Of a stretch of 32,286 bases of DNA, positions 22,934 through 31,255 are shown piece after piece. Numbering within the stretch: the stretch's first letter is position 1; every line of letters starts with the position of its first letter. The DNA lies in assembly GCA_903906515.1 (NCBI GenBank), contig CAIVKO010000162.1:1-32286 (forward strand). The letters are read 5' to 3'. Made by a program: the position numbers and the translations under genes. Under the pieces are notes generated by a model. It was given only the letters and a program-made list of their open reading frames with translations, searched no databases and was not told where the DNA came from. This DNA comes from Akkermansiaceae bacterium (GTDB lineage Bacteria > Verrucomicrobiota > Verrucomicrobiia > Verrucomicrobiales > Akkermansiaceae).

Positions 22934-22994
22934 GTTGAGCGCAACATCCCCGAGCGGGCCGTCAAACGCAAGCGCTCAATGCACACAAGACGGA

Positions 22995-23130
22995 AAGGCA
23001 GGACCTGATCTCCGAGCGGGTCGGAGTATGAGTTGAAAACGTGAGCCGATTCCTAGCCAAAAAGACAATCCATCGTCATTTCATTCTCGTTCAATTCGTA
23101 AGGACCGATTAAAGGTCGGATCCCTGCCTT
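22995..23130. repeat. Probable degenerate copy of the palindromic intergenic element
   Basis: This gap begins AAGGCAGG-ACC and TCTCCGAGCGG, then ATGAG about ten bases on, and ends TCCCTGCCTT (23121-23130). The left end resembles the element at 29582-29727 base for base apart from small differences, and its outer ends are complementary to each other over about ten bases. It lies just downstream of the HlyD-like gene and overlaps its stop codon by two bases, so it may also act as a terminator or mRNA end. The middle is not clearly palindromic. Confidence 0.45.
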
Positions 23131-24535
23131 ACGGACTGGCGATCACCTGGCCGATTTCGAGACCGCCGAGGATCTCGGTCTGATCACCGGATGTGCGGCC
23201 GCGCTTGACCGGGCGTTTTTCGGTTTTGCCGTTGGTGAGTTTGACGTCCACGGTCCAGCCTTTGGGGCCGTAGACGATGGCCTTGGTGGGGACGGCGATG
23301 GTGGCGTCCTGTTGATAGACGAGCAGGCGGGCTTGGACGGTGGAACCGGTGACAGGCGTCAGGTCCTTGGGCCAGGTGACGGTGAGATCCGCGCGGTAGG
23401 TGCCATCCAGACCGGGAGAAACAGCGATCTGGCTGAGTTTTACGGAAATTTCCGCGTCTTCACGGCCGGCCAAAGTGGCGAGACCTGTCATCTCCGGTTT
23501 GAGCGCGCGGGCGGTGGCTTCATCGAGAAAAGCGACGAGCGCAAGTTTGGCGGATGTGGGGACGAAGGTGGCGAATGGGCGATTGACCGCCGGGTGTCCA
23601 TGGATGACCAAGGATTTCAGCAACTCCGGATTGGGTGCCGACCAGCGGCCGTTTTCGATCGAGCCATGATAGAACCAGCCGTCGGCCGGGGCTTTGATTT
23701 CAAAAAGCTTACGGTCCTTCTCCAACTCGGCAAGCGCGTCTTTTTCCCGTGCATTCGCGGTTTTCAGGCCATCCAGTTCGATTTTCTTCAGCTCGATGGC
23801 GCGGGGGATATCGAGTTCCGCTTTGGTCATGGCGATGGCGGTATCGCGTTCGTTATTGGCCAGGGTGACCGCCTCGCGTGGGAGAAGCACTTCAAGGGTG
23901 CGTGTGTGGTCCAACTTTTCCATCCGCAGAGCGAACTCGGCAGCAGCCACCGCGTCCTTTTGGCGGGTGAGGATGATTTCCTCGGTATTCTCGGTGACGT
24001 CGTCCGCCTTGTACATTTGGGTGAGCTGCTTGAGTTCCTCCTGTTCGTTTTCGAGCATCTCCTTCCGGCGTTTCAATTGCTGGTCCGCGGATTCCTCCGC
24101 AGCTTTGCGGCGGGTTTGGGTGAAGTAGGCGTTTTCCTCTTTGGCGATTCTCGCGACACGGTGGAATGCCTCCAATTTATGAGGCGAGGTTTCCACGAGC
24201 TTTTTCAAATCCAGTTCCGCCTGCGCGAGGTTGAGGGCACCGGCGGCCAGCGAGTGGCGGACATCGGTGAGTTTTTTATCGATTTCCTCGGTGTCAAACC
24301 CCACCAGCACATCGCCCTTGGCCACCTTGGTGCCGTGTGCGGCGAGTGTGGTGATTTGAAAGTCCGTCCAGCTTTTGGGCTCGACCTGCAGCAGCACGCA
24401 CCCGTTCTCCGGCAGGGCGGTGGCGTTGAATGATTTCTCGATCGTGAATGGATGGGGCTCAACCGTGACTTCTCTGGCATGGGAAGCCGCAGCAAAAAGG
24501 ACAGGAACAAGATAAAATGCGGACGAACGGATCAT
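23129..24535 (-). CDS. Exported HlyD-like periplasmic adaptor (orphan)
   Basis: This encodes 468 residues from the ATG at 24535, which opens a signal peptide (MIRSSAFYLVPVLFAAASHA); an in-frame ATG 279 bases upstream would start inside the divergent gene and is rejected. The plan is that of a membrane-fusion (adaptor) protein. It has a first half of a lipoyl-like domain (GTKVAKGDVLVGFDTEEID, about 70-88) and a long charged helical hairpin (about 90-280) rich in Lys, Glu and Ala. The second lipoyl half is at FEIKAPADGWFYHGSIENG, and beta-barrel-like regions end VYGPKGWTVDVKLTNGKTEK. Such proteins link inner-membrane pumps to outer-membrane channels. No RND, ABC or TolC gene is nearby, so its partner is unknown. 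Confidence 0.78.
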   Translation of the reverse strand: MIRSSAFYLVPVLFAAASHAREVTVEPHPFTIEKSFNATALPENGCVLLQVEPKSWTDFQITTLAAHGTKVAKGDVLVGFDTEEIDKKLTDVRHSLAAGALNLAQAELDLKKLVETSPHKLEAFHRVARIAKEENAYFTQTRRKAAEESADQQLKRRKEMLENEQEELKQLTQMYKADDVTENTEEIILTRQKDAVAAAEFALRMEKLDHTRTLEVLLPREAVTLANNERDTAIAMTKAELDIPRAIELKKIELDGLKTANAREKDALAELEKDRKLFEIKAPADGWFYHGSIENGRWSAPNPELLKSLVIHGHPAVNRPFATFVPTSAKLALVAFLDEATARALKPEMTGLATLAGREDAEISVKLSQIAVSPGLDGTYRADLTVTWPKDLTPVTGSTVQARLLVYQQDATIAVPTKAIVYGPKGWTVDVKLTNGKTEKRPVKRGRTSGDQTEILGGLEIGQVIASP

Positions 24536-24714
24536 GGAAGGGGTGAAAAAACCACACTTCCATGAAAAGATCAACCTGAACCCAGAAGCCGCAAATGGAG
24601 GTGTCGTGGGAAACATCAGATAATTCGCTCCGCCAACCGCAGCCAAACCCCGCCAAATTTTATGAAAGATCCCTGTAACTACGGGGCGTATCGGTAGCAA
24701 CTCGATAAAAAAGT

Positions 24715-25992
24715 ATGATTTCCACACCCCTTTCATTCCCACGCCGCAAGTTCCTTGCGACCGGTGCCGCAGCCCTCGCTTGGGCTCCTCTGGCACGTCT
24801 GCGCGGCCAGACAAGTTCGCCCAACGATGAAATCGCCATGGGCTGTGTCGGGGTCGGCGGTCAAGGCTCGGGAAACATGACGAATTTCCTCAACATCAAG
24901 GGCGTGAGAGTCGTGGCGGTCTGTGACGTGGATGCCGATAAAGCCAAGGCCGCCAAAGCCAAGGTGGACGCATTTTACAAAAACCAGGACTGCAAGATCT
25001 ACGCCCAACACCGCGATTTGCTCCAGCACCCGGGCCTCGATGTGGTGAGCCTTGCCACTCCAGACCACTGGCACGCCCGGATCGGCATCGACTGCGCCAA
25101 CGCCGGCAAGGATGTCTATGGAGAAAAACCTTTCACCTGGGGGCTCGCCGAAGGTCGCCTGCTGGTGGAAGCGTTGAAGAAAAACAACCGCGTCTGGCAA
25201 ACCGGCTGCTGGCAGCGCTCGACCGGCGAGTTCCGCCGCTTCAAGGCGCTCATCGAAAACAACACGATTGGCAAACTCACCCGCTTCGAATGCGGCACGC
25301 CATCCGGCATGAGCGTCAAACAACACATCCCCGCAGATCAAGTCGCGGCTTTGCTCGGCAAGCCTCCCGAAAATCTCGATTGGAAAACCTACAGCGCACC
25401 CGTGGGCGATTTCCCCTATCACCCGCTGATCCACCCATGGAACTGGCGCTGGCACAATTCATTCGGCGGCGGGCAATTGCTCGACTGGGTGGGCCACCAC
25501 GTGGACATCGCGTTGTGGACGCTCGGTCTGGATGGCACCGGACCGGTCAAAATGGAAGGCTCCGGCGAAGCTGGCACCCACGAGTTTTTCAACACTTACG
25601 TCAAATATTCCTACCAGGGCACCTTTGCCGATGGCCGCGTCCTCGAAGTCCGCAGCGACTTCGGCGGCACCAAGTTCACCGGCGAAAAAGGCTGGATCCA
25701 CGTCAACCGCGGCAAACTCGAAGCCTCTGACCGCGAAATGCTCCGCAACCTTCCGGCCGACTTCGATACCAAGCCACCCAGCCATTACCAGAATTTCATC
25801 GACTGCGTCCGCTCGCGGAAGCTGACGGTTGCCCCTGCCGAAGCCGCCCACCGCGCCGCTTCGTTCGGCCAACTCGCCATCGTCGCCATGGACACCAAAC
25901 AACCCGTCAAATGGGATCCAAAAGCCGAAACTGTGCTCGACAATCCCGAACAAGCCAAGCATACGCGCCTCAGCAGCCGCGTTGCAGGCTGA
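24715..25992 (+). CDS. Tat-exported Gfo/Idh/MocA-family oxidoreductase (1)
   Basis: This 425-residue protein has a twin-arginine signal (R10-R11 in FPRRKFLATG, then a hydrophobic region). The NAD(P)-binding domain starts IAMGCVGVGGQGSGN and VRVVAVCDVDADK; VSLATPDHWHARIG and DVYGEKPFTWG follow, with the catalytic Lys at about 138. The second domain includes LLDWVGHHVDIALW, the family's H-x2-D region. Related secreted proteins in Verrucomicrobiota and Planctomycetes oxidise or reduce sugars, including steps that yield 3-keto sugars. It lies at the head of a co-directional set: DoxX 47 bases on, then a second Gfo/Idh/MocA protein. It diverges from the HlyD-like gene; the 179-base gap 24536-24714 should hold both promoters but shows no clear boxes. 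Confidence 0.9.
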   Translation: MISTPLSFPRRKFLATGAAALAWAPLARLRGQTSSPNDEIAMGCVGVGGQGSGNMTNFLNIKGVRVVAVCDVDADKAKAAKAKVDAFYKNQDCKIYAQHRDLLQHPGLDVVSLATPDHWHARIGIDCANAGKDVYGEKPFTWGLAEGRLLVEALKKNNRVWQTGCWQRSTGEFRRFKALIENNTIGKLTRFECGTPSGMSVKQHIPADQVAALLGKPPENLDWKTYSAPVGDFPYHPLIHPWNWRWHNSFGGGQLLDWVGHHVDIALWTLGLDGTGPVKMEGSGEAGTHEFFNTYVKYSYQGTFADGRVLEVRSDFGGTKFTGEKGWIHVNRGKLEASDREMLRNLPADFDTKPPSHYQNFIDCVRSRKLTVAPAEAAHRAASFGQLAIVAMDTKQPVKWDPKAETVLDNPEQAKHTRLSSRVAG

Positions 25993-29246: not shown

Positions 29247-29333
29247 TAAGGTGCGCATTTTCTGAAAATCCTTCTTTACGTCCGTGGTTGAAATTCGTTA
29301 GCTGATCGCCCCCCTCCATCCTGACTCGTTGTC

Positions 29334-29555
29334 ATGAACCGCCTACCCCCTCAGAATGAAAAGCCCCGGTTTTCCGGTGCTCTTCGTCATTATCACCGTT
29401 CGGGTTGCCAAACCCAACGGACATGGGAAGAATGGGTGGATGGAAAAGCCTCGCGCTCATGGGTCACCAAAAAATCGATTGCTGTCATCGTGATCACGCT
29501 GGCGGTGCTTGCGCTAGCCGGGATTATCACCGGACTTATCATCGAACTGCGGTAA
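29334..29555 (+). CDS. Small one-TM membrane protein
   Basis: This 73-residue protein has a polar N-terminal part with WEEWVDGKASRSWVTKKS, then a single hydrophobic helix at about 49-69 (AVIVITLAVLALAGIITGLI) and a short ELR tail. The lysines just before the helix suggest a cytoplasmic N-terminus. It is preceded by a terminator and followed by the palindromic element, so it is probably monocistronic. I do not recognise a family. The amphipathic or Trp-rich segment before the helix supports a real protein. Confidence 0.5.
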   Translation: MNRLPPQNEKPRFSGALRHYHRSGCQTQRTWEEWVDGKASRSWVTKKSIAVIVITLAVLALAGIITGLIIELR

Positions 29556-29581
29556 CGCCCGCATGAGGGGAGATGCCAAGG

Positions 29582-29727
29582 CAGGGACCGTCTCTCCGAG
29601 CGGTCCGGCGAATGAGAAACGCGAATGGCTGAGTCGCTCCGATTCCCCCATTCGCATTTCTCATGATTGTGAAGAGGCTTTTCATTCTCTTTCCATTCAC
29701 GCGGATCGCTCGGAGAGACGGTCCCTG
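29582..29727. repeat. 146-bp palindromic intergenic element (MITE-like or structured RNA)
   Basis: The outer arms (29582-29606 and 29703-29727) are complementary over 25 bases with a single G-T wobble; the left arm begins CAGGGACCGTCTCTCCGAGC. A second inverted repeat sits inside: 29612-29628 (starts ATGAGAAACG) pairs with 29648-29664 (ends TTTCTCAT), 16 of 17 bases. The transcript could fold into a long hairpin. A related, degraded copy occurs at 22995-23130. Both are in intergenic gaps. It encodes no transposase, so it is either a non-autonomous mobile repeat or a repeated structural element. It spans most of the gap between the one-TM protein and leuC. Confidence 0.8.
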
Positions 29728-29766
29728 TCCAGCGTATCATTTCTGGCTCTTTTTTGGCATGTGGCT

Positions 29767-29795
29767 TTGACAATCCACCCTGACAACGACAGATT
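29767..29795 (+). promoter_or_regulatory. Candidate leuC promoter
   Basis: A consensus -35 box TTGACA (29767-29772) is followed after 17 bases by a weak -10 (CAGATT, 29790-29795; three of six consensus positions). Transcription would begin about 30 bases before leuC. There is no leader peptide rich in Leu codons, so attenuation of the classic leu type is not visible. Confidence 0.35.
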
Positions 29796-29830
29796 CCCGC
29801 CCCGCCGATAACCACGGCGCCATTTTCACC

Positions 29831-31255
29831 ATGGGAAAAAGCCTATTTCAAAAAGTCTGGGACGCCCACACCGTCGGCACGTTGGCCGATGGTCGCACGC
29901 AGCTCTTCATCGGAACCCACCTCATTCATGAGGTGACCTCACCCCAAGCCTTCGGTATGTTGCGCGATCTCGGGCTCAAGGTGAAGTTTCCGCAACGCAC
30001 GTTCGCCACCGTGGACCACATCGTTCCCACGATCGATCAGGATGCCCCACAGGATCCGCTCGCTGCGGAAATGATGCAGGCACTGCGCAAGAATGCCGAT
30101 GATTTCGACGTCACCTATTTCGACCTCGCATCCGGAAAACAAGGCATCGTCCACGTTGTCGGACCCGAGCAAGGGATCACCCAGCCGGGCACCACCATCG
30201 CCTGCGGCGACTCCCACACCGCCACCCACGGCGCGTTCGGAGCCATCGCTTTCGGCATCGGCACTACTCAGGTGCGCGATGTGCTTGCCTCGCAGACGCT
30301 CGCCCTGGAAGCCCTCAAGGTCCGCCGCATCGAAGTGAACGGCCAACTCCGGCCCGGCGTCTATGCCAAGGACGTGATCCTGCATATCATCAGATTGTTG
30401 GGTGCCAAGGGCGGCATCGGCTACGGATATGAATACGCCGGTGATGTCTTCGAACGCATGTCGGTGGAAGAGCGGATGACCGTCTGCAACATGTCCATCG
30501 AAGGCGGTGCGCGTTGCGGCTACATCAATCCGGACGCCAAAACCATCGCCTATCTCAAGGGCCGCCCATACGTGGACATGACGGATTTCGACGCCACCGC
30601 CTTGCGTTGGCTCTCGTTCGCCTCGGACCCGGATGCGCACTACGACGACATCGTCCGCATCAAGGCGGAGGATATCGAACCCACCGTCACTTGGGGGATT
30701 TCCCCGGACCACGGGATTTCCATTTCCGAAAACATCCCGGATCCTGCCAAGGCTGCGACTCCCTTGGAAAAAGCCTCCATCGAGGAAGCGCTTGCCTACA
30801 TGAAACTCGACGCCGGCACCCCGATCAAGGGCGTCAAGATCGATGTCGCTTTCATCGGTTCCTGCACCAACGGTCGGATCTCGGATTTCCGCGAGGTAGC
30901 GAAATACATCCAAGGTCATAAAGTGGCGGACGGGGTGAAAGCCATCGTTGTTCCCGGATCCCAAATCGTCGCCATCCAATGCGAACAGGAAGGCCTGCCG
31001 AAAATCTTCACCGACGCCGGCTTCGAATGGCGCGGTGCGGGTTGCTCGATGTGCCTCGCGATGAATCCGGACAAGCTGATCGGCGATCAACTCTGCGCCT
31101 CCTCGTCCAACCGCAACTTCAAAGGCCGCCAGGGCTCGCCCACCGGTCGCACCGTCCTGATGTCACCCGTCATGGTCGCCGCTGCCGCTATCAACGGTCG
31201 CATCTCGGACGCCCGCGAACTTTTCCACATTGAACAGGCCGCCACAGTGGCGTAG
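29831..31255 (+). CDS. leuC: 3-isopropylmalate dehydratase, large subunit
   Basis: This 474-residue protein is a full-length LeuC of the aconitase superfamily. FVDHIVPT-type residues occur near 60 ([18 protein letters not shown]). [20 protein letters not shown] is the signature segment. [20 protein letters not shown] gives the first Fe-S Cys, and [17 protein letters not shown] the other two. It works with LeuD to isomerise 2-isopropylmalate to 3-isopropylmalate in leucine synthesis, with a [4Fe-4S] cluster. The leuD gene follows, but is separated from it by the hicB-hicA pair. Confidence 0.97.

Follow-up and report, generated by a model that had tools for sequence, protein, structure and literature searches.

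The 146-nt palindrome at positions 29582-29727 of the window (the whole analysed stretch of 32,286 nucleotides, from an Akkermansiaceae bacterium) is, with a probability of about 0.93, a REPIN, i.e., a BIME-type head-to-head pair of REP units that represents RAYT-associated mobile DNA of a non-autonomous kind, its insertion site lying between leuC and a small ORF. The first-pass annotation had offered a MITE, a REP-like element, or a structured RNA as explanations. Many copies, units forming hairpins of 21-22 nt, their arrangement as dimers, and the presence of these REPs on both sides of a RAYT gene show that "REP-like" was the correct term, with one letter of the tag differing.

Structure of the element upstream of leuC

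The features of the window considered here were as follows.

22991-23135, no strand assigned: REP dimer, head-to-head and decayed, belonging to the family of 29582-29727 (profile matches in both halves; sequence; ORF list)
29334-29555, + strand: small ORF of 73 aa upstream of leuC, left border of the insertion interval (tblastn, 22 of 30 loci including this one)
29580-29606, + strand: left REP unit, with the tag GGCAG at 29580-29584 and the 22-nt hairpin GGACCGTCTCTCCGAGCGGTCC at 29585-29606 (pattern match; profile match 29573-29632, E 1.2e-14)
29607-29702, no strand assigned: spacer between the REP hairpins, with tails rich in ATG/GAATG as in other copies (self-blast, fold, other copies)
about 29612-29628 and 29648-29664: arms of the inner inverted repeat in the spacer (self-blast)
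29703-29728, − strand: right REP unit, inverted, with the hairpin core at 29703-29724 and the tag ACAG (29725-29728), not GCAG (profile match 29732-29672, E 8.9e-16; sequence)
29831-31255, + strand: leuC-like gene of the aconitase family, bounding the insertion interval on the right (Pfam PF00330, E 2.8e-164)

The gene at 29831-31255 is one that we take, from our reading of the sequence, to be leuC. The palindrome had been described as having an outer inverted repeat with one wobble, and this was confirmed: the 26-nt arms (29582-29607 and 29702-29727), lying 94 nt apart, were paired at 25 of 26 positions (96%), the odd pair being G-T. The second, inner inverted repeat was present at 29612-29664 but imperfect, with a 79% match over 53 nt between this stretch and its own reverse complement in self-blast. 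The fold check proposed with the first description gave −56.5 kcal/mol for the DNA of positions 29570-29740 vs. −25.5 ± 3.1 kcal/mol for 200 dinucleotide shuffles (z = −10.1), none of which was as low. Judging from the sequence, the window element seems to be a longer form, in which the two halves are separated by an additional, inverted copy of the tail.

A degraded relative had been noticed at 22995-23130. This was borne out by matches of the family profile in both halves, at 22991-23055 (+, E 3.1e-6) and 23135-23064 (−, E 0.002), the two halves being arranged head to head. The GGCAG tag of this dimer is directly adjoined, on the − strand, by the TAA stop codon of the ORF 23129-24814.

Copies and unit structure of the REP family

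The genome carrying the window (4.48 Mb, 265 contigs, 96% complete; hereafter the source genome) contained 84 matches to a strict hairpin pattern, and the reversed-pattern control gave 0. Thus, the search of the genome for further copies found them, and the reading as a single-locus structure falls. Blastn with the element yielded at least 161 matches in the source genome at E ≤ 10, and 40 of 151 first-look candidates were scored. A profile built from 54 units detected 111 units in 40 loci of the source genome; since resemblance to the window element was the basis on which these loci were chosen, numbers derived from them do not amount to a census.

The REP unit begins with AAGGCAG-GGACCGTCTCTCCGAGCGGTCC and continues into a tail in which ATG and GAATGA are frequent. 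Among 103 units, found with a search pattern that preset the tag as G[GA][CT]AG and the loop as TCC, the hairpin core was 22 nt long in 83 and 21 nt long in 20; one identical 22-nt core was common to 35 of the 103. Pair 9-15 of the 83 longer units was T-A in 47 cases, C-G in 28, A-T in 5, and unpaired in 3. This pair varies yet stays paired, and therefore the hairpin has been kept by compensatory change at this position. Pairs 6-17 and 8-16 were broken in 21 and 20 of the 83 longer units, respectively; in such units the bulge seems, from the sequence, to be shifted.

Two variant forms were also observed. Enlarged REP hairpins with ~65 nt between GACCGTCT and TCCGAGCGG occurred in L046, L047, and L060 (C42:25496-25579, C223:6805-6889, and C48:8265-8350). 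These inserts contain further small hairpins, one with a compensatory change from T-A to C-G, which makes them a composite REP form. Dimers with common extra flanks (about TCTTAAAAATGG on one side and TGAATATT..AAAGG on the other) were found in L011, L019, L022, L025, L045, L048, L050, L053, and L054, and their sequence gives the impression that the moving unit was longer and carried outer repeats.

Dimers, target sites, and genomic placement

A simple +/− head-to-head pair made up 28 of the 42 unit clusters. Neighbouring unit pairs (n = 69) were oriented +− in 43 cases, in tandem in 23, and −+ in 3. The span was 112-116 or 132-137 nt in 21 of 31 measured clusters, out of 40 clusters with head-to-head ends; the rest of the 40, the main element of the window included, were dropped because an end tag did not match the pattern. 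Simple dimers overall measured 112-146 bp. Tandem REP arrays had periods of 30 bp and 49 bp.

Target-site duplications, proposed earlier as a check, were not found around the 31 clusters (99 vs. a shuffled mean of 100.6), and a test for inverted flanks around clusters was also negative. These data bear on the idea of a classical MITE, i.e., an insertion sequence that has been shortened, has terminal inverted repeats, and is mobilised by a DDE transposase. Such an element would likewise have inverted ends, many copies, an intergenic position, and the length of the simple dimers. However, besides the missing duplications, the tandem units and the HUH tyrosine type of the REP-bracketed transposase (see below) argue against it, and we consider it extremely improbable; the term MITE applies only loosely, to any non-autonomous element that is moved in trans.

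Genes were predicted with a home-made gene finder that uses codon pairs and had been trained on 15 ORFs of the window. None of the 42 clusters was located inside a predicted gene; several extended over the end of one, by at most 52 nt. Among the 39 clusters with both neighbours, 19 lay between convergent genes, 16 between tandem genes, and 4 between divergent genes. Gene 3′ ends were at a median distance of 16.5 nt (54 cases), and gene 5′ ends at one of 99 nt (27 cases). Copies lie mainly just past stop codons, presumably the positions at which they are least harmful. This placement at 3′ ends and between convergent genes agrees with the REP locations given in the parts of PMC3733652 used here.

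Arrival at leuC and distribution

Stretches upstream of leuC were compared for 30 loci from 41 genomes of the genus, and the small ORF was recognisable in 22 of the 30, including the source genome. The distance from its stop codon to leuC was 275 bp in the source genome, where it holds the dimer, vs. 93-135 bp at the other 21 loci. The family profile matched only the source stretch among the 30. The intergenic flanks were too diverged among the loci for the exact insertion junction to be read. As 21 shorter intervals have no element and the source interval alone has the dimer, the sequence comparison indicates that the element probably arrived at leuC in the source lineage.

The small ORF (here 73 aa with a hydrophobic end) together with a GCATGyGGCTTTGACA-like motif precedes leuC in most of the 22 comparable loci (29334-29830 in the window; orthologues among L185-L209). 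This motif may belong to the promoter of leuC.

The strict tagged pattern was present in 6 of 59 genomes: the source genome and 5 of 36 others of the genus; 22 genomes representing other families of the order had none. When named genomes were searched for exact 27-mer matches, 27 stretches were returned, all of them in Akkermansiaceae, Verrucomicrobiae, or Verrucomicrobia MAGs.

The strong fold and the position near gene 3′ ends, with many convergent pairs, would also be expected of a structured RNA or a transcription terminator whose hairpin is selected at gene ends. Against this stand the absence of the element from the 21 other comparable leuC loci and its patchy occurrence in the genus. 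In addition, no Rfam family was detected at gathering thresholds anywhere in the window, and 29300-29900 contained no terminator-like sites (shuffles give 0.7). A structured RNA or terminator as the explanation is therefore very improbable; the REPIN may have a secondary role in RNA after insertion.

RAYT transposase flanked by the family

Two short divergent RAYTs located on contig C26 led to a third RAYT in the source genome (match region C121:396-803). Its frame was open, without stop codons, and REPs of the window element's family were located on both sides of it (3 + 5). Its homologues G018:C12 and G026:C141 were likewise bracketed by the same REP family. With the NCBIfam model NF047646 (REP_Tyr_transpos, cut-off 80), the G018 protein scored 92.9 bits, over the cut-off, and the G026 and source proteins scored 78.4 and 69.2 bits, under it; the source RAYT had the lowest score of the three. 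Pfam returned nothing for the source or G018 RAYT at E ≤ 0.01. The cognate RAYT was missed by the Pfam model and found via a divergent relative. The G018 RAYT matched the E. coli TnpA-REP structure 4er8 with E 1.1e-10. The HLH motif and the equivalents of W94, Q95, R104, and Y115 were invariant in five RAYTs, and W94, Q95, H101, R104, Y115, and N119 (E. coli numbering) were conserved in a 30-row alignment, in which the truncated match L234 is without the first H of the HUH motif.

Other candidates were rejected. The ten PF01797 (Y1) hits of the source genome had no REP of this family nearby, only scattered two-mismatch REP matches and, in L039, a weak match to the tail alone. A RAYT on G026:C187 has a REP pair ~1.3 kb away and is itself flanked by other repeats. 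A scan of viral contigs contained no relatives of the RAYT.

The two further RAYTs of the source genome at C26:9148-12618 (L039, L040, L148, L149) are accompanied by GTAG-tagged REPs of other sequences; one of these REPs (GCGGTCTGGCTCAGACCGC) has a tail resembling that of the GCAG family.

The repeats could also be a true REPIN family spread by another enzyme, since lost, with the C121 RAYT being a relic or having another host function. The lowest score among the three REP-bracketed RAYTs, the many diverged copies, and the ACAG right tag of the window copy are in line with this. Nevertheless, the C121 frame without stops and with REPs on both sides, the retained catalytic motifs, and the identical core in 35 of 103 units speak against this, and we regard a lost enzyme as unlikely.

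GCAG tag and RAYT phylogeny

Among 65 source copies found with a hairpin-only anchor, the four bases before the hairpin were GCAG in 56 and GTAG in 3, with the remaining 6 having a different tag; this count is free of the tag but has the TCC loop preset, and its stem list mixes 21- and 22-nt cores, so that pair percentages taken from it understate pairing. The source family thus departs in its tag from the GTAG-tagged REP superfamily. Since GYAG occurs in some published families, according to the parts of PMC3733652 used here, the GCAG family is a variant of that superfamily rather than an outsider.

Homologues of the RAYT were detected in 26 of 73 genomes of the genus (E ≤ 1e-20) and, across the order, in 36 of 288 (E ≤ 1e-22). 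In the tree of 51 fetched RAYT loci, 15 lay on one side of a branch with support 100/98; clade labels were given by us after identities and tags had been seen. One locus of this GCAG clade (G168) comes from another family of the order. Tags were counted in two ways, loosely (G[TC][AG]G tags only) and by a both-sides rule (any GNNG, with a hairpin family required on each side of the gene).

GCAG-tagged hairpins were found near all 15 loci of the clade. At eleven of them the gene was flanked on each side by a hairpin family; GCAG was the top tag in 10 of these and tied with GCCG in L217. L220, L244, L245, and L246 failed the both-sides rule and had 4, 3, 1, and 2 GCAG hairpins, respectively, L245 being weak because of its single hairpin. 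Other tags within the clade were GTGG in L214 and L220 and GTAG in L224.

GTAG or GTGG was the leading or joint leading REP tag in 35 of the other 36 loci: in 27 by the both-sides rule and in 8 by the looser counts alone (L225, L226, L229, L230, L232, L241, L249, and L264, the last being weak with two hairpins). Under the strict both-sides rule, L225, L226, and L229 gave other tags only, including one GCAG in L225. The five GCAG readings of L230 sit directly before GTGG REPs. The remaining locus, L259, was without clear REPs.

Alignment columns separating the clades (30 rows, E. coli numbering) include 29, 32, 55, 83, 108, 113, and 118. We somewhat favour the view that RAYTs of the GCAG clade changed the second letter of the REP guide from T to C, the enzyme having co-adapted so that GCAG is the working tag; the co-adaptation is something that we infer, because the agreement of tag and tree is one split and so one evolutionary event. 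If this view is true, the residues marking the clade (e.g., D vs. S at 108, W vs. mostly A at 113, and E vs. mostly M at 118) include determinants of guide reading. Sister clades of the GTAG and GCAG sides both occur in the source genome and form a natural experiment for the recognition code. How RAYTs recognise REPs and choose the cleavage site has been studied in very few enzymes. Among the open-licence papers searched, we found no description of this REP family or of a GCAG RAYT clade. The data add a REPIN population to Akkermansiaceae-type Verrucomicrobia and suggest that searches limited to GTAG/GTGG tags would miss such families.

Y1 transposases in frame inside host genes

A different type of RAYT/Y1 transposase was observed in frame, without stops, inside host genes, at L274:790-3480 (+) and L273:1508-5782 (−) in the source genome and at L265-L272 in relatives. 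The ten cases were chosen for long open frames and hence give no rate. The interrupted genes were GcpE/IspG (ispG), methionine synthase (metH), leucyl-tRNA synthetase (leuS), and HsdR-like restriction genes with two cases each, and alanyl-tRNA synthetase (alaS) and the carbamoyl-phosphate synthase large chain (carB) with one each. One of the metH cases had two transposase domains. The frame of L270 runs into the contig end, and the Y1 match of L267 is under the Pfam cut-off.

A single match was obtained for the ispG piece in the source genome, and likewise for the leuS piece in both G018 and G010; given these single matches, the interrupted gene appears to be the sole copy in those genomes. 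REPs within genes are reported in PMC3733652; RAYT genes inside genes are not among the reports of the passages used here. Intein-like guests in essential genes would be remarkable.

Proposed mechanism

By analogy with the enzymes described in the parts of PMC8266576 used here, the RAYT encoded on C121 would bind the single-stranded REP hairpin. The tag 5′ of the hairpin, GCAG in place of GTAG, would guide the position of cleavage. The RAYT would then link through its tyrosine and move the dimer elsewhere without target duplication, as in the REPIN model outlined in the cited parts of PMC3116915. If the element influences mRNA ends or supercoiling, this would be a secondary effect. Counting against the overall reading are the scores of the source and G026 RAYTs under the NCBIfam cut-off, the empty Pfam result for the source and G018 proteins, and the dominance of GCAG, a tag that the E. 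coli and S. maltophilia enzymes handle poorly or not at all (see below).

Comparison with known REP systems

As described in the portions of PMC3116915 drawn on, the REPINs of Pseudomonas fluorescens SBW25 are alike in having two inverted REPs with a spacer, a predicted single hairpin, preferred spacings, tandem clusters, an extragenic position, and a RAYT beside some clusters. The family described here differs in sequence, phylum, spans (112-116/132-137 nt), and tag (GCAG).

The GTAG-tagged REP superfamily, in the excerpts of PMC3733652 used, shares the short hairpin, the 5′ tetranucleotide, mostly head-to-head dimers, downstream or convergent placement, and RAYT association. According to the same excerpts, GTAG is found in >90% of members of most REP families, with GYAG and other degeneracy in some, whereas the 65 source copies carry GCAG in 56 cases. 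Hosts of the superfamily include one of the Verrucomicrobia, Opitutus terrae, whose GTAG-20 elements carry mostly GTGG. Many REPs of O. terrae are reported there as intragenic, in contrast to the present family with 0 of 42 clusters inside genes. In PMC6006769, as far as the part used shows, REPs were searched for by their GTAG or GTGG tags.

The REPtrons of E. coli, S. maltophilia, and Marinomonas, as characterised in the sections of PMC8266576 used here, share with the present system a HUH tyrosine protein with W94, Q95, H101, R104, Y115, and N119 conserved by alignment; the present system differs in having a RAYT clade paired with GCAG. In those sections, the E. coli enzyme tolerated no substitution in GTAG, the S. 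maltophilia enzyme bound GCAG and barely cleaved it, and the Marinomonas Mb enzyme tolerated tag changes better.
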